A DNA stretch of 41,393 nt from Planctomycetota bacterium (GTDB taxonomy: Bacteria > Planctomycetota > UBA1135 > UBA2386): NCBI GenBank assembly GCA_016872675.1, contig VGZG01000028.1, positions 1 to 41,393 on the forward strand, read 5' to 3'. Shown piece after piece: positions 2,544 to 34,601 of this stretch (position 1 is its first letter; the number at the start of each line of letters is the position of its first letter). A program made the position numbers and the translations under genes. The notes below the pieces were generated by a model. It was not told the origin of the DNA. It ran no database searches and worked only from the letters and a program-made list of their open reading frames with translations.

Positions 2544-4265
2544 ATGACCCGCCTGCGCGGCGAGTGCGTCGCCCCCGGCGTCGCGGTTGGACCGGTGGTG
2601 TTGCGGGGCTTCGACGCGCAGCAGACATCGCGGCGCATCGCCGCGGACGAAGTCGAAGGCGAGTTGACGGCGCTGCGCGTCGCGCTCGACAAGAGCCGCG
2701 AGCAGATCGAGGAGATCAAGCAGAAGCAGGGTGGCGCGCTCGGCGAGTCGGAGCTGCGCATCTTCGACGCTCACCTTTCGTACCTCGCCGACGCAATGTT
2801 CGTCACCGAAATCGAATCGCAGGTGATCAAGGAGCGGTTGTCGGTGCGCGAGGCCGTGCAGGTCGTGTTCGGCAAGTACGACCGCATCTTCCAGCTGGTC
2901 GAGAACGACCTCTTGCGTCGCCGCGCCAGCGACCTGCGCGACGTCGCCACGCGCATGCTGCGCAACCTCGACAAGACGGCCGTGCGCGGCGGCGCGCCGG
3001 CCAACGTGCCGTACATTCTCGTCGTGCGCCGGCTGACGACGGCGGACATGTTCAACGTCGCCAATGAGAAGGTCGAGGGCATCGTCGCGGAGGAGGGCGG
3101 CATGAACTCGCACGCGGCGATCCTGGCGCGCAGCATGGGCATTCCGACGGTGACCGGCATCCATGGCCTGCCGAGCGACCTTCGCGACGGCGACCCCGTG
3201 GTGCTCGACGCGACGCACGGCGAGTTGGTGACGCGCCCGGCCGATACCGAACTCGCCGACGCGACGGCGGCGGCGCAGCGCTGGAAGGCGAGCCTGTCGG
3301 AGCGCGCCGAACCGGCTGGGGCCGCCGAGCACGCGACCCGCGATGGCGTCGCCGTGCGCATCCTGGGCTCTTGCGGCAGCGCTGGCGAGGCCGAGTTGGT
3401 GCGTTCGTTCGGCATGGCCGGCATCGGCGTGTTCCGCACCGAGCTGCAGTTCTTGACCGAGAGGATGCGGCCGACGGAGGATGCGCTGGTCGCCGCGTAC
3501 CGGAAGGCCATCGAGACGCAGCTTGGCAAGGACGTCGCTTTCCGCCTACTCGACGTGATGGCGGCGTCGCGGGCGGCCGACGGCGCGCCGGCGGAGCGCA
3601 ACCCGACGATGGGACTACGCGGCGTGCGCGGCTTGCTGCGCTCGCCCGATCTGATGCGCATGCAGTTGCGCGCGATCCTGCGCGCCGGAGCCGGCGTAGA
3701 GGGCATCGGCATCCTGGTGCCGTTCGTCACCGGCCTCCCGGACCTGCAGCGCGTCAAGGCGGCGCTGCTCGAGGAGCGCGTCGCGCTCAAGAAGGCGCGC
3801 ATACCAGTCGCCGAGGATGTGGCGTTGGCGCCGATTGTCGAGGTGCCGGCGGCGGCGATGCAGCTCGGCGCGCTGTTCAACGAGAGCGATTTCGCCGTCG
3901 TCGCCGTCGACGACCTGCAGGCGCACATGCTCGCCGCCGACCGCGACAACGCCGACGTGCGCGAGTACCACGAGATGGCGCACCCGGCGGTGTTCGAGCT
4001 GCTGGCGCGCATGGCCAAGGACGCCGAGCGCCGCGAGAAGCCGATCGTGCTGTTCGGCGAGTGCGCCGCCGACCCGGTGCGCGTGCCGTTCTACCTCGGC
4101 GTCGGCTACCGCAACTTCTCGGTCGCGCCGGTGCGCCTGCGCGGCCTGCTCAAGGCGCTCAGCCGCTACTCGATCGACGAGTGCCGGCGCATCGCCGCGC
4201 GCGTGCTCGAGGCGCCGCGCACCGTCGATGTGCAGAAGGTGCTGGTCAGCATCGAGACCGTCTGA
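2544..4265 (+). CDS. ptsI: PTS Enzyme I-like PEP phosphotransferase with altered active site
   Basis: 573 residues, the normal length for Enzyme I. The start ATG is preceded by CGGAGG (2531-2536) at good Shine-Dalgarno spacing; the longer upstream reading frame is low-complexity Arg/Ala. Enzyme I passes phosphate from PEP to HPr through a histidine, here His190 in GGMNSHAAILARS. The PEP-binding barrel keeps FRTEL, FRLLD, NPTMGLRGVR, IVEVPAAA and the Arg of ADRDN. Three normally fixed features are changed: the GGDK loop after RTMDI is replaced by VMAAS, the Asn of TNDL is Asp (VDDL), and the proton-donor Cys502 (MCGE) is Phe504 (LFGE). The phosphohistidine is kept, so it may still act as a regulatory phosphocarrier, but full PEP turnover is doubtful. 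No ptsH or sugar permease gene lies nearby. Confidence 0.85.
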   Translation: MTRLRGECVAPGVAVGPVVLRGFDAQQTSRRIAADEVEGELTALRVALDKSREQIEEIKQKQGGALGESELRIFDAHLSYLADAMFVTEIESQVIKERLSVREAVQVVFGKYDRIFQLVENDLLRRRASDLRDVATRMLRNLDKTAVRGGAPANVPYILVVRRLTTADMFNVANEKVEGIVAEEGGMNSHAAILARSMGIPTVTGIHGLPSDLRDGDPVVLDATHGELVTRPADTELADATAAAQRWKASLSERAEPAGAAEHATRDGVAVRILGSCGSAGEAELVRSFGMAGIGVFRTELQFLTERMRPTEDALVAAYRKAIETQLGKDVAFRLLDVMAASRAADGAPAERNPTMGLRGVRGLLRSPDLMRMQLRAILRAGAGVEGIGILVPFVTGLPDLQRVKAALLEERVALKKARIPVAEDVALAPIVEVPAAAMQLGALFNESDFAVVAVDDLQAHMLAADRDNADVREYHEMAHPAVFELLARMAKDAERREKPIVLFGECAADPVRVPFYLGVGYRNFSVAPVRLRGLLKALSRYSIDECRRIAARVLEAPRTVDVQKVLVSIETV

Positions 4266-28398: not shown

Positions 28399-29865
28399 AT
28401 GGCTTCGATCCAGAACGGCTTCTGTGGCCGCACCCGCCGCGAGTTCCTCTGGCAGGCGGGCGGCGGCTTCGCCTCGCTCGGCCTGACCGACCTGCTTTCG
28501 CGCGACGGCTTCTTCGCGCGCCGTGATGGTCTCGGCGTCGCCGGCGGCGAACCGGCTGGGCCGCTCGCGCCGAAGGCCCCGCACCACCCGGCGAAGGCCA
28601 AGGCCTGCATCTTCCTGTTCATGTACGGCGGCCCGAGCCAGGTCGACACGTTCGACTACAAGCCCAAGCTCTACGGCCTCGACGGCAAGACCATCGACAT
28701 CGCCACCAAGGGCCGCGGCGGCAGCAAGAACCAGGGCCGCGTCGTCGGGCCCAAGTGGCGCTTTCGGCCTTACGGCGAGTGCGGCCACCACGTCAGCGAC
28801 CTGTTCCCGCACGTCGCCCGCTGCGTCGACGACATCGCCTTCGTGCACAGCATGTACGCGGAGTCGCCGCTGCACGGCTCGGCGATGCTGATGATGAACA
28901 GCGGCAAGATCCTGTCGGGCGCGCCATGCCTGGGCAGCTGGGTCAACTACGGGCTCGGCACCGAGAACCAGAACCTGCCGGGCTTCGTCGTGATGCTCGA
29001 CCAGTCCGGCGGCCCGATCTCGGGCGCGAAGAACTGGAACAGCGGCTACATGCCGGCCGTGTACCAGGGCACCGTGCTGCGCCCGTCCGGCGAGCCGATC
29101 CTCGATCTCGCGCTGCCCGAGGGCATGACGCCGCGCGAGCAGCGGCGGCTGCTCGACACGCTGCGTCAGCAGAACGAGGCGCACCTCGCGGCGCGGCCCG
29201 GCGACACCGACCTCGCGGCGCGCATCCAGAGCTACGAGCTGGCGTACCGCATGCAGGCCAACGCGCCGGAGGCGATCGACCTCGCCGACGAGCCCGAGCA
29301 CATCCGGCGGCTCTACGGCCTCGACAACCCGCGCACCGAGGACTTCGCCCGCAAGTGCATCCTGGCGCGGCGGCTCGTCGAGCGCGGCGTGCGCTTCATC
29401 CAGGTCTACTCCGGCGGCAACCACAACGACCACAACTGGGACGCGCACGGCGACCTCGTGCACAACCACGAGAAGCACGCCGGCGACACCGACCAACCGG
29501 TCGCAGCACTGCTCACCGACCTCAAGCAGCGCGGCCTGCTGGATTCGACGATCGTCGTGTGGGGCGGCGAGTTCGGCCGCCAGCCGACCGCCGAGTACGC
29601 GGAGGGCACCGGCCGCGACCACGACTCGGCGGGTTTCACCATGTGGCTCGCCGGCGGCGGCATCAAGGGCGGCATCAAGGTCGGCGCGACCGACGAACTC
29701 GGCTACAAGGCCGTCGAGAAGCCGTTCCACGTCAAGCACCTGCACGCGACGATCCTGCAGCAGATGGGCCTCGACCCGAATCGGCTGTCGTTCTTTCACG
29801 CTGGTTTGGCCCAGCGTTTGGTCGGCACCGAAGGCGCAGAGCCGATCCGCGAGCTGATCGCGTAG
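28399..29865 (+). CDS. DUF1501 family protein (Tat-exported, sulfatase/phosphatase-like fold)
   Basis: 488 residues. Tat motif TRREFLWQAGGGFASLGL at the N-terminus. DUF1501 body: KACIFLFMYGGPSQVDTFDYKP, GKWRF-like KWRFRPYGECGHHVSDLFPH, FVHSMYAESPLHGSAMLMM, LPGFVVMLD, VRFIQVYSGGNHNDHNWDAHGD and TIVVWGGEFGR, all in the expected order. The fold is related to alkaline phosphatase and sulfatase. It is exported folded and is the usual partner of PSD1 proteins; the 32-base gap suggests one operon. The chosen ATG starts directly at the Tat leader. Confidence 0.93.
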   Translation: MASIQNGFCGRTRREFLWQAGGGFASLGLTDLLSRDGFFARRDGLGVAGGEPAGPLAPKAPHHPAKAKACIFLFMYGGPSQVDTFDYKPKLYGLDGKTIDIATKGRGGSKNQGRVVGPKWRFRPYGECGHHVSDLFPHVARCVDDIAFVHSMYAESPLHGSAMLMMNSGKILSGAPCLGSWVNYGLGTENQNLPGFVVMLDQSGGPISGAKNWNSGYMPAVYQGTVLRPSGEPILDLALPEGMTPREQRRLLDTLRQQNEAHLAARPGDTDLAARIQSYELAYRMQANAPEAIDLADEPEHIRRLYGLDNPRTEDFARKCILARRLVERGVRFIQVYSGGNHNDHNWDAHGDLVHNHEKHAGDTDQPVAALLTDLKQRGLLDSTIVVWGGEFGRQPTAEYAEGTGRDHDSAGFTMWLAGGGIKGGIKVGATDELGYKAVEKPFHVKHLHATILQQMGLDPNRLSFFHAGLAQRLVGTEGAEPIRELIA

Positions 29866-30243: not shown

Positions 30244-30570
30244 CTAGTTGGTGCTCGGCGAGCGATCCGGCTGCGCTAGCTCGCCCTCGACGCGGTTGAT
30301 GTCGAGCGCGACGAGTGTGGCGAGGTATACGGCGCTGTCCTCCGGCCGCTCGGCGACGAAGGCGCGCGCAACGGCGACGAACTCGCGGAAGCCGATGATG
30401 CCGGCTTCACCGCGGCTCAACAGGCGCGCGCCGAAGTCGAGGGCGTGGGGGAGTGCGATTCGGCGCAGGGACTTGCGCGCTTGTGCGGCGGGCGTGGGTG
30501 GCAGCATGGTGGAGATGGCGCGCTGGCGGGCAACGCGCGCGCGGGCGAGGTAGTGCGCGACCGGGGGCAA
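30244..30570 (-). CDS. hypothetical protein downstream of senB
   Basis: 108 residues from a TTG at 30570 (or 87 from the ATG at 30507). No family recognised. It starts 25 bases after the senB stop on the same strand, so it may be cotranscribed. The sequence is mostly helical and soluble-looking, with no signal or membrane segment. The central part (GFREFVAVARAFVAERPEDS) and YLATLVALDINRVEGEL look like real protein rather than antisense shadow. If real, it could belong with selenosugar metabolism, but nothing in it shows this. Confidence 0.45.
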   Translation of the reverse strand: MPPVAHYLARARVARQRAISTMLPPTPAAQARKSLRRIALPHALDFGARLLSRGEAGIIGFREFVAVARAFVAERPEDSAVYLATLVALDINRVEGELAQPDRSPSTN

Positions 30571-30595
30571 GCGCGGCGCGCGCCGTCGCCGCCGG

Positions 30596-31585
30596 TCAGT
30601 CGAGGCCGATGTCGGCGAGCAGCGCGGCCCAGGCGGCGCGTTCGCGCGCCGGCGCCACCATCGGCCGCAGCGCTGCGGCGCGGGCGCGCAGCCCGGCGAA
30701 GAACGCGGCGTCGCCGGCCGCGCGCGCGAGCAATGCGCCGAGCGCCGCCGCGTCGCCGGCCGGGAACAGGCCCGGCCAGTCGTCGCCGAGCAGCGCGGTG
30801 TTGCCGGGCACGGCGGTGGCGAGCGGCGGCACGCCGGCGGCGAGCGCTTCCGACACGACGTTGGCGCCGCCTTCGGCCGCCGACGGCACGACCAGCACGT
30901 CGCTCGCGGCGAGCAGCGCGCGGGCTTGGCGGCGCGGCAGCTCGCCGAGCCAGCGCGCGCGCGGCTCGGCGGCCACCGCGGCGCGCATCGCGGCGGCGAG
31001 GTCGTCGGTCAGCGCGCGGCCGGCGACGACGACTTGGACCAAGGGCGTGTCCGGCACGTGCGCGAGCGCGTGCACGGGCAGCAGCGGGTCCTTCACGAGG
31101 CGCAGGTGCGCGAGCACGCACGCGACGAACGGGCGCGCGACGGCTCCGGACGACGCCGCGTGCGCGCCCACCGTCGTCGCCGACTGCACGATCGCGCGCG
31201 CCTTGGCGCGCAGCGCCGCCGGCAGCGCCGACGCGGCGAGCGGTTGCAGCGCCACGATCGCGTCGGCCGCGGCGAGCGCTGCCGCGCTGTCCGGCGTCGG
31301 CTCGTAGCGCGGATAGACGTCGGTGCCGGCGAGCATCACGACGAACCGCGCGTCCGGCCGGGCCGCCTTCGCCGCGACCGCCGCCGTCGCCGACTTCACC
31401 GCGTGCACGGCGACGACGAGGTCGCACGGCTCGTCGCGCCACGCGGTGCGCACGCGCGTCGTCCAGCCGAGCTGGCGCAGCAGACCGGCGACGCGCAGCG
31501 CGGTGGTGCGATTGCCCGCACGGCTGCCGCGCGGCGCCGGCGTCAGCACGACGGCGATGCGACGGCGCGCTACGTTGTCAGCCAT
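30596..31585 (-). CDS. senB: SenB-type selenosugar synthase (TIGR04348 glycosyltransferase)
   Basis: 329 residues from the ATG at 31585. GT4-like two-domain glycosyltransferase. The N-terminus RRIAVVLTPAPRGSRAGNRT, then EPCDLVVAVHAVKSA, FVVMLAGTDVYP, ADAIVALQPLAASALP and RAKARAIVQSA, matches the TIGR04348/SenB pattern. The C-terminal nucleotide-sugar site is SDVLVVPSAAEGGANVVSEAL. SenB joins selenophosphate to a UDP-sugar to make a selenosugar, which SenA-type enzymes use for selenoneine. Neither senA nor senC (selD-like) lies in the window, so the pathway end product is open. Its start codon overlaps the divergent lipoprotein start in the palindrome CATG. A selenoprotein gene lies 354 bases away on the same strand. 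Confidence 0.8.
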   Translation of the reverse strand: MADNVARRRIAVVLTPAPRGSRAGNRTTALRVAGLLRQLGWTTRVRTAWRDEPCDLVVAVHAVKSATAAVAAKAARPDARFVVMLAGTDVYPRYEPTPDSAAALAAADAIVALQPLAASALPAALRAKARAIVQSATTVGAHAASSGAVARPFVACVLAHLRLVKDPLLPVHALAHVPDTPLVQVVVAGRALTDDLAAAMRAAVAAEPRARWLGELPRRQARALLAASDVLVVPSAAEGGANVVSEALAAGVPPLATAVPGNTALLGDDWPGLFPAGDAAALGALLARAAGDAAFFAGLRARAAALRPMVAPARERAAWAALLADIGLD

Positions 31586-31913
31586 GTCGCCCCGCCTCCT
31601 CGCCGTCGCCGCTGGCGTGGCAACCATGTTCGCTGCCTGCGCCGCCGCGCCGCCGCCGCCCGCGCCGTTCGACCCGGCGACGGCGCAGAGCGTGCGGCCG
31701 GGCATCAACGCCGACTTCACCAACCCGCGGCTCGACATCGACGCGATGGCCGAGCGCATCGAGGGCACGAGCCGCCAGTGGATCGTCGACCACGTGCGCT
31801 ACGGCCGCGAGACGGCGATCCAAGAAGTCACCGCCGCCGACTTCGCTCTCGTCGTGGTCGTGCCAGTCGGATGGACGGAGAACTACTTCCTCCGCTTCAA
31901 GGAGCGCGGCTGA
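31584..31913 (+). CDS. lipoprotein: internally deleted SAM-methyltransferase-like protein
   Basis: 109 residues from the ATG at 31584; an in-frame ATG at 31557 is also possible. Lipobox FAAC. The mature part has two blocks recalling secreted planctomycete SAM methyltransferases: RPGINADFTNPRLDIDAMAE, which in full-length members precedes the Rossmann core, and SRQWIVDHVRYGRETAIQEV through ENYFLRFKERG, which forms their C-terminus. The whole SAM-binding core (about 130-150 residues with the GxGxG motif) is absent, and the blocks meet at RIEGTSR. Both blocks naturally contain an R-x-x-x-x-SR motif there, so an in-frame recombination deletion is a good explanation. The product cannot be an active methyltransferase. 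It may be a relic or a repurposed binding protein. Confidence 0.6.
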   Translation: MSPRLLAVAAGVATMFAACAAAPPPPAPFDPATAQSVRPGINADFTNPRLDIDAMAERIEGTSRQWIVDHVRYGRETAIQEVTAADFALVVVVPVGWTENYFLRFKERG

Positions 31914-31918
31914 GCCCG

Positions 31919-31938
31919 CGTGCGCGCCGCGCCGCACG
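31919..31938. terminator. possible hairpin between the convergent lipoprotein and selenoprotein genes
   Basis: CGTGCG (31919-31924) pairs with CGCACG (31933-31938) across an 8-base loop, filling the gap between the two convergent stop codons. There is no T-run on either side. Confidence 0.3.
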
Positions 31939-32169
31939 TCAGCCCTGGCCGAACTGGCGAAGGATCTCGTCGTGGTGCGGGAAGCGGTCGCCGTCGCGCC
32001 GCTTCTTGTCCCACAGCAGGGCGCCGTCGGCCCTCACCACGAAGTCGCCGCGGCCGCCGGGCTTCGTCTCCACTTGCGCGCCCGGATGGGCCTTCTTGAT
32101 CGCGGCGGCCAGACTGGTCGCCTTCGGCAGGTAGCTTCAAGCCACGCAGTATTCGATCGTGACGCGCAT
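31939..32169 (-). CDS. SelT/SelW/SelH (Rdx) family selenoprotein, Sec encoded by in-frame UGA
   Basis: 76 residues if the UGA at 32139..32137 is read as selenocysteine. The ATG is at 32169 and the final stop is a second TGA at 31941..31939. The start MRVTIEYCVAU puts Cys8 and Sec11 in the CxxU redox motif of the Rdx family. SYLPKATSLAAAIKKAHPGA, then KPGGRGDFVVRADGALLWDK and DGDRFPHHDEILRQFG, follow the family from end to end, with no other break. These small thioredoxin-like proteins act as cytoplasmic redox proteins. A SECIS-like hairpin begins 14 nt after the UGA. The alternative, a nonsense mutation, would have had to hit exactly this codon. TACACT lies 6 bases before the ATG. SenB, 354 bases away, shows that selenium is used here. 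Confidence 0.85.
32104..32122 (-). promoter_or_regulatory. bacterial SECIS-like hairpin of the selenoprotein mRNA
   Basis: On the minus strand, 14 nt after the UGA, the sequence GGCGACCAGUCUGGCCGCC folds as GGCG/CGCC, one A-C mismatch, CCA/UGG, and an apical GUC loop. E. coli fdhF has GCA-GGUC-UGC in the same position, with its loop about 18 nt after the UGA. A G-U in the apical loop at this distance is what SelB needs. Folding was done by hand. Confidence 0.6.
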
Positions 32170-32175
32170 GGTGGG

Positions 32176-32181
32176 AGTGTA
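32176..32181 (-). promoter_or_regulatory. putative -10 hexamer TACACT of the selenoprotein gene
   Basis: TACACT (minus strand) is followed by CCCACC and the ATG at 32169, the same 6-base leaderless spacing seen elsewhere. It lies in the 39-base gap behind the DUF423 gene. Confidence 0.4.
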
Positions 32182-32208
32182 GGCCGGAGCGGGTGGCCCG
32201 GCACGCCG

Positions 32209-32583
32209 TCACGCCGCCGATTCATCGCGCCGGCCGAGCGCCAGCAGGACCCAGCCGACGACCAGCAGCACGCCGCCGATCGGCGTGATCGCGCCGAGCC
32301 ACTTCGCGCCGGTCAGGACGAGCGCGTAGAGCGTGCCGGAGAACGCTAGCACGCCGGCCAGCAACGCTCGCGCGGCGCCGGCGGTGCGCCAGCCGCGCTC
32401 GGCGAGCAGGCCGCACAGCACGAGTGCGAGCGCGTGGTAGGTCTGGTAGCGCACGGCGACCTCGAAAGTCTGCAACGCGCGGTCATCGAGGCGGCCCTGC
32501 AGCGCGTGCGCGCCGAAGGCGCCGGCGACGACGGCGAGCGCGCCGAGCGCGGCCCCGAGGCGGATTGATGTCGTGGATCGCAT
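32209..32583 (-). CDS. DUF423 family membrane protein
   Basis: 124 residues, the usual length. Four transmembrane helices. The family pattern is clear: LGALAVVAGAFGAHALQGRL, RALQTFEVAVRYQTYHALAL, and FSGTLYALVLTGAKWLGAITPIGG in two blocks. Function unknown. Its stop lies 39 bases before the selenoprotein start on the same strand, but the selenoprotein seems to have its own promoter, so cotranscription is uncertain. Confidence 0.9.
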   Translation of the reverse strand: MRSTTSIRLGAALGALAVVAGAFGAHALQGRLDDRALQTFEVAVRYQTYHALALVLCGLLAERGWRTAGAARALLAGVLAFSGTLYALVLTGAKWLGAITPIGGVLLVVGWVLLALGRRDESAA

Positions 32584-32714: not shown

Positions 32715-34601
32715 ATGCAGCGCCTTCGCATTCTGTTTTCGTTCGTTTTCGCCTGTAGCCTCGTCGCCCAGGGCAACGAGTTGCCCGGCGTCGCCGCGTT
32801 CGTGAATGAAGCCACGAACACCTTGCGCGATGACGGCACGGGTCTGGTCGTCGTCCGCGGCGATGAGGTCCTGCACCGCACCGTCACTGGCGCGCTCCGG
32901 GGCGACAGTGCGTTCGCCATCGGCACAGCCAGCAAGTGGCTGGCAGTCGCGACGATCCTGACGCTCGTCGACGAGGGCAAGCTCGACCTCGACGCACCGG
33001 TCGCCAACTACGTCAAGGAGTTCGACCGCGCCGACAAGCGCGCGATCACGCTGCGGCAGTGCCTCGCCAACACCGGCGGCCTGCCGAGCAAGATCAACGG
33101 TCGCGCGCGTGGCTGGAACATGGACACATTCGCGGCCGCAGTCGCTGTGTCCGGCGTGCGCGAACAACCTGACATGTCATTTCGCCACGGCGAGGTCGGC
33201 TTGCAGATCGCGGCCGTCGCCGCCTGCCGCGTGACCGGCGCGAGCTGGCACCAGCTGTTCGAGAACCGCATCGTCGCGCCGCTCAACCTCGACGGCACGC
33301 GCTTCGGCGCGCAGCAGCCGCAGGGCGCCGAAGCCGGCACGACGGCCCTGCCGTGGGTTGCGTCGGGCGCGGTGTCGACCCTCGACGACTACGCGAAGTT
33401 CTTGCGCATGCTGTCCAACTGCGGCCGCTTCCAGGGCAAGCAGGTCGTCGCCGCGGGCTCGGTCGCCGCGATGCTGCGCGATCAGGCGCCGGAGCCGGTG
33501 ACCATCGTCGCCGACGGCTTCCGCGCCGATAACGTCCGCTACGGCCTCGGCACGTGGGTCGAGACGCTGGCCAACGGCGCGACACGCGTCGTCGAGCCGA
33601 ACAGTTACGGGTTCACGCCGTGGCTCGACCTCGACCTCGGCGTCGCCGGCTTGTTCGTCGCCAACGTGCGCGCGAGCAAGCCACTGCCGCAGGCGGCGCG
33701 CGTCCAGGCCAAGGTCCGTGAGGTCATGAACTCGCCCGAAGTCGCCGGCACGAGCGCCAAGCACGCCACGAGCCACCACGGCCGCGATCGCAGCTACGAG
33801 CTGCACATGCCGCCGGTCGCGGCGAAGGGCGGCGCGTTGCCGCTGCTGGTCGTGTTGCACGACGACAAGGACAGCGCCGCGCAGGCGCGCACGGAAACCG
33901 GCTTCGCCACGGCCGGCACGCGCAACGGCTACGTTGTGGTGTTTGCGAACGGCACGGGCGTCTCGACCGAGCGCGGCCTGACGTGGAACAGCGGCGTCGT
34001 GACCAACTACGCGTCCGAGAACCGCATCGACGACGTCGACTTCCTGCGCAAGGTCGTCGCCGAGGTCAGCAAGCGGGCGCCGATCGACGCCAACCGCATC
34101 TTCGCTGTCGGTCACGGCCAGGGCGGCGCGATGTGCCACCGCCTCGCCCGTGAGGCGAGCGATGTGTTCGCCGGCATCGCCACATACGGCGGCGCGACAA
34201 TGCAGCCGTCGCCGCTCGGTCAGGCGCCGATCGCAGCGCTGCTGCTGCAGGGCACCAACGACCACGCCGCCCGCTTCGGCGGCGCCGGCGACACGACCGA
34301 TCCGGTCGCGGCGACGGTCGGCTACTACGTGCAGCGCAACCAGCTGGTCGGCTACCCGCAGCAGGACGTCGATGGCAAGGTGTGCACGCAGACCTTCGGC
34401 AAGGGCCGCAATAGCCAGAAGACGCAGACGGTGCGTGTAGTCACATTGGAGGGCGGCAACCACGCGTGGCCGGGCGCCAACTGCAAGCCGCGCACGCCGG
34501 CGGAATCGGCGTTCCCGTTCGACGCCACGGCCGCGACGCTCACGTTCTTCCGCGACGTCACGCTGACCACGCCCGAGATGGCGTCGCCGACCGGCGGCTG
34601 A
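32715..34601 (+). CDS. secreted fusion: beta-lactamase-like domain + CE1/PHB-depolymerase-like domain, both nucleophiles replaced
   Basis: 628 residues from the ATG at 32715. Signal peptide ending SLVA with Gln at +1. Residues about 22-340 resemble class C beta-lactamase/esterase folds (FAIGTASKWLAVATILTLVDEG...). The SxxK nucleophile is Thr71 (TASK), the YxN motif reads HGE (SFRHGEVGLQ), and no HxG is seen near the end. Residues about 355-610 resemble the feruloyl esterase/PHB depolymerase family (GVVTNYASENRIDDVDFLR, RIFAVGHGQGGAMCHRLA, LLLQGTNDHAARFGG, GGNHAWPG). Here the GxSxG serine is Gly468 (GHGQG), while the Asp and His regions remain. Both domains are therefore probably non-hydrolytic and may bind a polymer or peptidoglycan fragment. 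Confidence 0.7.
   Translation: MQRLRILFSFVFACSLVAQGNELPGVAAFVNEATNTLRDDGTGLVVVRGDEVLHRTVTGALRGDSAFAIGTASKWLAVATILTLVDEGKLDLDAPVANYVKEFDRADKRAITLRQCLANTGGLPSKINGRARGWNMDTFAAAVAVSGVREQPDMSFRHGEVGLQIAAVAACRVTGASWHQLFENRIVAPLNLDGTRFGAQQPQGAEAGTTALPWVASGAVSTLDDYAKFLRMLSNCGRFQGKQVVAAGSVAAMLRDQAPEPVTIVADGFRADNVRYGLGTWVETLANGATRVVEPNSYGFTPWLDLDLGVAGLFVANVRASKPLPQAARVQAKVREVMNSPEVAGTSAKHATSHHGRDRSYELHMPPVAAKGGALPLLVVLHDDKDSAAQARTETGFATAGTRNGYVVVFANGTGVSTERGLTWNSGVVTNYASENRIDDVDFLRKVVAEVSKRAPIDANRIFAVGHGQGGAMCHRLAREASDVFAGIATYGGATMQPSPLGQAPIAALLLQGTNDHAARFGGAGDTTDPVAATVGYYVQRNQLVGYPQQDVDGKVCTQTFGKGRNSQKTQTVRVVTLEGGNHAWPGANCKPRTPAESAFPFDATAATLTFFRDVTLTTPEMASPTGG

Follow-up and report, generated by a model that had tools for sequence, protein, structure and literature searches.

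The window, by which we mean the whole stretch of 41,393 nucleotides analysed here, contains on its minus strand a gene for a predicted SenB homologue, a GT-B selenosugar synthase (Se-glycosyltransferase) of 329 amino acids (30596..31585, with its ATG start codon at 31585). Upstream of it, on the same strand, is rdx, a gene for a predicted SelW-like selenoprotein of 76 amino acids with a CVAU motif (31939..32169, ATG start codon at 32169). Both genes lie on the strand and at the places that an earlier note on this DNA had given, although the gap between them is 353 bp rather than 354. The gap is not empty: it holds, on the plus strand, a lipoprotein SAM methyltransferase gene reduced to a relic (31584..31913, 109 amino acids), whose start codon overlaps that of senB. 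The N- and C-termini of the relic align to the 238-residue protein of a sister species, and approximately 130 residues comprising the SAM-binding core have been deleted in frame. The methyltransferase gene is intact in the sister species, and is missing from the rdx–senB gap in several relatives.

Directly 3′ of senB on the minus strand is a gene for a small conserved protein, p108 (30244..30507). It had been described as an unknown protein of 108 residues; the small gene is there, but that length needs a TTG start at 30570, and judged by its homologues the protein is probably 87 residues long, starting from the ATG at 30507. Profile searches with p108 gave no match in Pfam or NCBIfam. Homologues are found at the same position in 13 SenB genomes from 6 genera, and are retained also where senB has been lost. 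On the other side of rdx is a gene for a DUF423 membrane protein (32209..32583, minus strand; Pfam DUF423, 95.5 bits), a member of the syntenic block with a conserved position. The order of the block is DUF423, rdx(UGA), methyltransferase (on the opposite strand, and a relic in the window), senB and the small gene. It is flanked by two convergent syntenic genes on the plus strand, encoding a DUF1501 protein (28399..29865; Pfam DUF1501, 500 bits), which is a conserved flank, and a protein that we take from its sequence type to be serine-hydrolase/esterase-like (32715..34601), syntenic in 13 genomes of the family. No known RNA element was found in the window at the Rfam gathering thresholds.

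The SenB homologue matches the NCBIfam profile TIGR04348 over its whole length (289.6 bits, E = 2.4e-86), missing the curated cut-off of 300 bits by 10 bits. Orthologues from the same clade in the family score 269–318 bits, several of them above 300. Its best matches in the PDB are the SenB crystal structures 8fbx/8jjq (E = 5e-41), and in the tree it lies within the f1 SenB clade. We also checked whether it aligns better outside the SenB clade: the nearest non-SenB NCBIfam family gives 118 bits compared to 290 for TIGR04348, and the placement stands. In SenB from Variovorax paradoxus, Lys158 is catalytic and Asn20, Thr23, Glu231 and Gln131 are sugar residues, with Arg155 also listed (PMC10891094). 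K158, N20, T23, E231, Q131 and R155 correspond to K165, N25, T28, E238, Q134 and R162 in the window protein. On this comparison the catalytic lysine and sugar-contacting residues are in place, and the protein is a homologue of SenB, as the earlier note had proposed. Within the selenophosphate pocket (H58, R61, T83 and T85), the histidine and T85 are kept, T83 is replaced by Ala and R61 by Lys. These two substitutions, together with the score 10 bits below the curated cut-off, could be taken to mean that the enzyme has departed from selenium chemistry and is now an ordinary GT4 glycosyltransferase. We regard this as very unlikely: the T83A (LAGTD) form is also present in the closest SenA-bearing relatives, and none of the catalytic positions (Lys, Arg, Asn, Thr, Glu and Gln) has changed.

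The Rdx protein scores well above the family cut-offs, with 55.8 bits for TIGR02174 (cut-off 34.2) and 64.9 bits for Pfam Rdx, PF10262 (cut-off 22.6). Its in-frame TGA (32137..32139, minus strand) is found in all 14 linked relatives. It is followed after 18–34 nt by a bSECIS-type hairpin with a GUC loop (32105..32121, minus strand), which has 7 bp and was found in 14/14 genomes using RNAalifold; five of the seven pairs are kept in 14/14, with compensatory changes. The genome encodes a full-length tRNA-Sec (contig C14), a SelB above cut-off (contig C1) and a SelD whose gene itself contains one TGA (G000:C131:1270-2190, 344 bits) and is unlinked to senB. Because this machinery is present and the hairpin is conserved, the UGA of rdx very probably encodes selenocysteine, in agreement with the original identification of Rdx as a UGA-containing selenoprotein. 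The same note had reported senA and senC to be missing. Genome-wide, this holds for senA; a selenophosphate synthetase is however present, in the form of the UGA-containing SelD on another contig. We note that the genome has one further Rdx gene with a UGA, more divergent than the first (G000:C36:20021-20251, 28 bits).

We then analysed the neighbourhood of rdx and senB in related genomes, using a survey of the planctomycete order that comprised 151 genomes, 75 of them with SenB. In 14 genomes (that of the window and 13 others), all from one planctomycete family, a UGA-containing rdx immediately precedes senB on the same strand; among the loci read in the order, no such pair was found outside this family. 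The gap between the two genes is as short as approximately 20–60 bp in some of the family genomes. The SenB proteins of the 14 linked genomes, together with that of one genome cut by a contig end, form a clade of 15 with 99% SH-aLRT support. Chance proximity, one of the two explanations offered previously, is rejected on the basis of these 14 conserved cases, since 13 genomes besides that of the window share its gene order and orientation.

Conserved adjacency might suggest that rdx and senB act together as one functional unit, in which Rdx reduces a selenosugar diselenide or passes selenium to or from SenB. The constant arrangement of the pair across the 14 family genomes and the short gaps in some of them fit this idea, as does the character of SelW-type proteins, which carry a CxxU motif and belong to the redox proteins, and the finding (described below) that SenB appears to carry selenocysteine itself in other lineages. 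We nevertheless consider it unlikely. The 14 cases represent a single inherited arrangement, and in at least eight family members (G007, G008, G012, G022, G026, G027, G030 and G031) rdx directly adjoins the small gene, with no senB between the two, so that dependence of rdx on senB in an operon is rejected. Mapped on a block-gene tree, senB comes or goes seven times, most simply as one gain and repeated losses. The pair was not seen in other phyla: across 80 SenB loci drawn from many phyla, the only ones with rdx detected beside senB were the 8 of the window's own family; SenA was nearby in 51. Finally, the flanking genes are about as conserved as the rdx–senB pair. Because the blocks without senB keep rdx, and the flanks are about equally conserved, the adjacency reads as old inherited synteny that requires no functional tie.

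The partners expected of SenB are found elsewhere in most of these genomes. The genes for SenA-type proteins of the family adjoin egtD; the two make up an operon of their own, located between flgB and cysC and unlinked to senB. SenA is present in 11 of the 15 genomes that have SenB in the block. The family SenA proteins group with SenA encoded next to senB elsewhere (99% support), the one family SenA compared with the PDB was closest to selenoneine synthase, and the lower-scoring paralogues are of the EgtB type. SenA and SenB co-occur in the family: as raw counts that ignore kinship, 12 of its genomes have both, 6 have SenB only, 1 has SenA only and 15 have neither. The rdx–senB pair is thus usually one half of a split selenoneine pathway, the other half of which is absent only in some lineages, including that of the window.

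In the window genome, profile searches gave no SenA/EgtB/OvsA/OvoA-type match at 1e-20 (SenA model NF041186) and no EgtD (TIGR03438), and a genome-wide search of the sister species (G001) found neither SenA nor EgtD. In both genomes a single contig spans the flgB...cysC interval without a break and carries several of the same intervening genes, with no egtD or senA. A different state is seen in G005, in which egtD is at flgB...cysC, senA has gone from the same contig and senB is kept. The absences of SenA and EgtD rest on profile searches of draft genomes, the window genome being a MAG of 182 contigs (95% complete) and the sister a MAG that is 92% complete. With assemblies of this kind it could be argued that the selenoneine pathway is complete and that egtD–senA was simply missed. 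This is extremely unlikely, given that the home locus is continuous without both genes in two independent MAGs and that neither gene was found anywhere else in either.

The SenB proteins of the window and sister species differ at approximately 20% of residues, and neither gene has a stop or frameshift. Since the split of the two species, senB has evolved with a pN/pS of 0.41 (p=4e-9 against neutrality), compared to 0.34–0.47 in SenA-bearing pairs: constraint in the orphan pair is no weaker. In the SenA-less lineage of the window, senB is under purifying selection. Because egtD–senA is cleanly gone and pN/pS is 0.41, we conclude that senB has been maintained after loss of the selenoneine-forming enzymes. 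The situation is not confined to this lineage. In the order, a SenA match of at least 380 bits, a threshold set in this analysis and checked against the tree for the rows tested, is missing from 41 of the 75 SenB genomes; by hand count, 15 of the 32 SenB genomes of high quality have neither EgtD nor SenA; and there are whole SenB clades elsewhere in the order without SenA/EgtD.

On balance we favour, by a modest degree of confidence, the explanation that a working selenosugar synthase has persisted after the other parts of the selenoneine pathway were lost and that its selenosugar has another fate, as the earlier note had raised as a possibility on seeing SenB and Rdx(U) present and SenA absent. 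SelD would make selenophosphate, and SenB would move its selenium onto a UDP-sugar to give a 1-selenosugar. This could be an end product, serving as a selenium store or antioxidant, or the substrate of an enzyme other than SenA/OvsA. Rdx would be a SelW-type thiol/selenol oxidoreductase in its own right, close to senB through inheritance, although it is possible that it keeps the selenosugar reduced. Several observations count against a working orphan SenB, namely the score below the NCBIfam cut-off, T83A and R61K, and the draft state of both MAGs.

Since SenB outlived SenA, the data are best explained by a different fate of the selenosugar; the main rival is decay, in which selenoneine production ended with the egtD–senA deletion and senB is a relic whose loss is still to come. 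The adjacent methyltransferase gene has already decayed in the window, and senA is absent in all six inferred losses of senB in the family, so that SenA loss may come first and SenA-less lineages could be on their way to losing senB. We think decay rather improbable for the window, although it is the alternative that we take most seriously. The deletion is common to two species whose SenB proteins have diverged as described, without stop or frameshift and with pN/pS like that of SenA-bearing pairs, and the SenB clades without SenA/EgtD elsewhere in the order also argue against it.

The wider survey revealed a further feature of SenB. Eight planctomycete SenB genes contain a single in-frame UGA, positioned 4–7 residues after the glutamine equivalent to the sugar-touching Q131 and following a QS motif (loci L045, L046, L049, L062, L064, L077, L085 and L112). 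On the tree this UGA arose twice, and within genus g80 one species has it and another has Cys at roughly this position. One Latescibacterota SenB (L259, SenB 3001-3936) has a UGA in the same active-site loop. In five Poribacteria (G151:C521, G152:C147, G153:C26, G177:C48 and G178:C46; loci L273, L274, L282, L283 and L285), the UGA is instead at the column just before GHLR (GHLRPVKDP). This column is Cys in seven other Poribacteria (TGT or TGC) and in 53 of the 67 scorable loci across phyla. The window SenB has Cys (C156) here and no UGA. SelB is above the cut-off in G151–G154 and in six of the eight planctomycetes with UGA, and fell short in G064 and G132 (G177 and G178 were left out of this comparison). 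The sequence following the UGA of planctomycete SenB can be folded into a hairpin, but GC-rich controls that lack a UGA do so just as well. Exchange between Cys and UGA is the usual computational sign of selenocysteine. On this sign, SenB is apparently a selenoprotein in some bacterial lineages, and the UGA-type SenB of Poribacteria is probably one.

We discounted two other UGA codons, in the SenB of G050 (L094, after RWAR) and in L235 (at an Arg column), since neither falls at a redox column; the former may reflect a pseudogene, an error or an odd Sec site. We also note that a MoaA-like gene is directly upstream of the UGA-type senB in L045, L046, L062 and L085, which belong to genera g43 and g53 only, and that two radical-SAM B12-type genes are directly upstream of senB in several genera (L051, L053, L056, L059, L061 and L095). 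No glycosyltransferase is named in the main text of an inventory of selenoproteins in prokaryotes from 2026 (PMC13188914), our coverage of the literature being partial.

A broader reading, which we put forward tentatively and which may well prove wrong, is that a second, SenA-independent selenosugar pathway is widespread in the order, and that its product, a selenosugar or derivative, is kept reduced by selenol proteins: the neighbouring Sec-Rdx here, and selenocysteine inside SenB elsewhere.

One of the closest known systems is the sen cluster (senA-senB-senC) of V. paradoxus, which makes selenoneine. The SenB proteins have the same catalytic residues, and SenA and EgtD, too, occur in relatives of the window. 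The window genome differs in having neither SenA nor EgtD, in its unlinked SelD with a UGA-containing gene, and in the Rdx selenoprotein gene beside senB. The ovoselenol pathway, with the selenoxide synthase OvsA, is likewise a known route to a selenium-containing histidine derivative, of which the SenA model found no counterpart in the window genome. The window Rdx belongs to the same family as the SELENOW-like prokaryotic selenoproteins, sharing CxxU and a SECIS-type hairpin; in the literature we found no description of members beside senB. A further close system is the split selenoneine pathway of the family itself, which has an identical rdx–senB block and from which the egtD–senA half has been deleted in the lineage of the window.

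If the UGA at the Cys column or in the active-site loop is read as selenocysteine, SenB, an enzyme of selenium-sugar synthesis, would itself be a selenoprotein in some bacteria. The literature that we found names two selenium-containing small-molecule products of bacteria, selenoneine and ovoselenol. A lineage in which the selenoneine-forming half of the pathway has been deleted while SenB remains under selection offers a concrete genome in which to seek a third.
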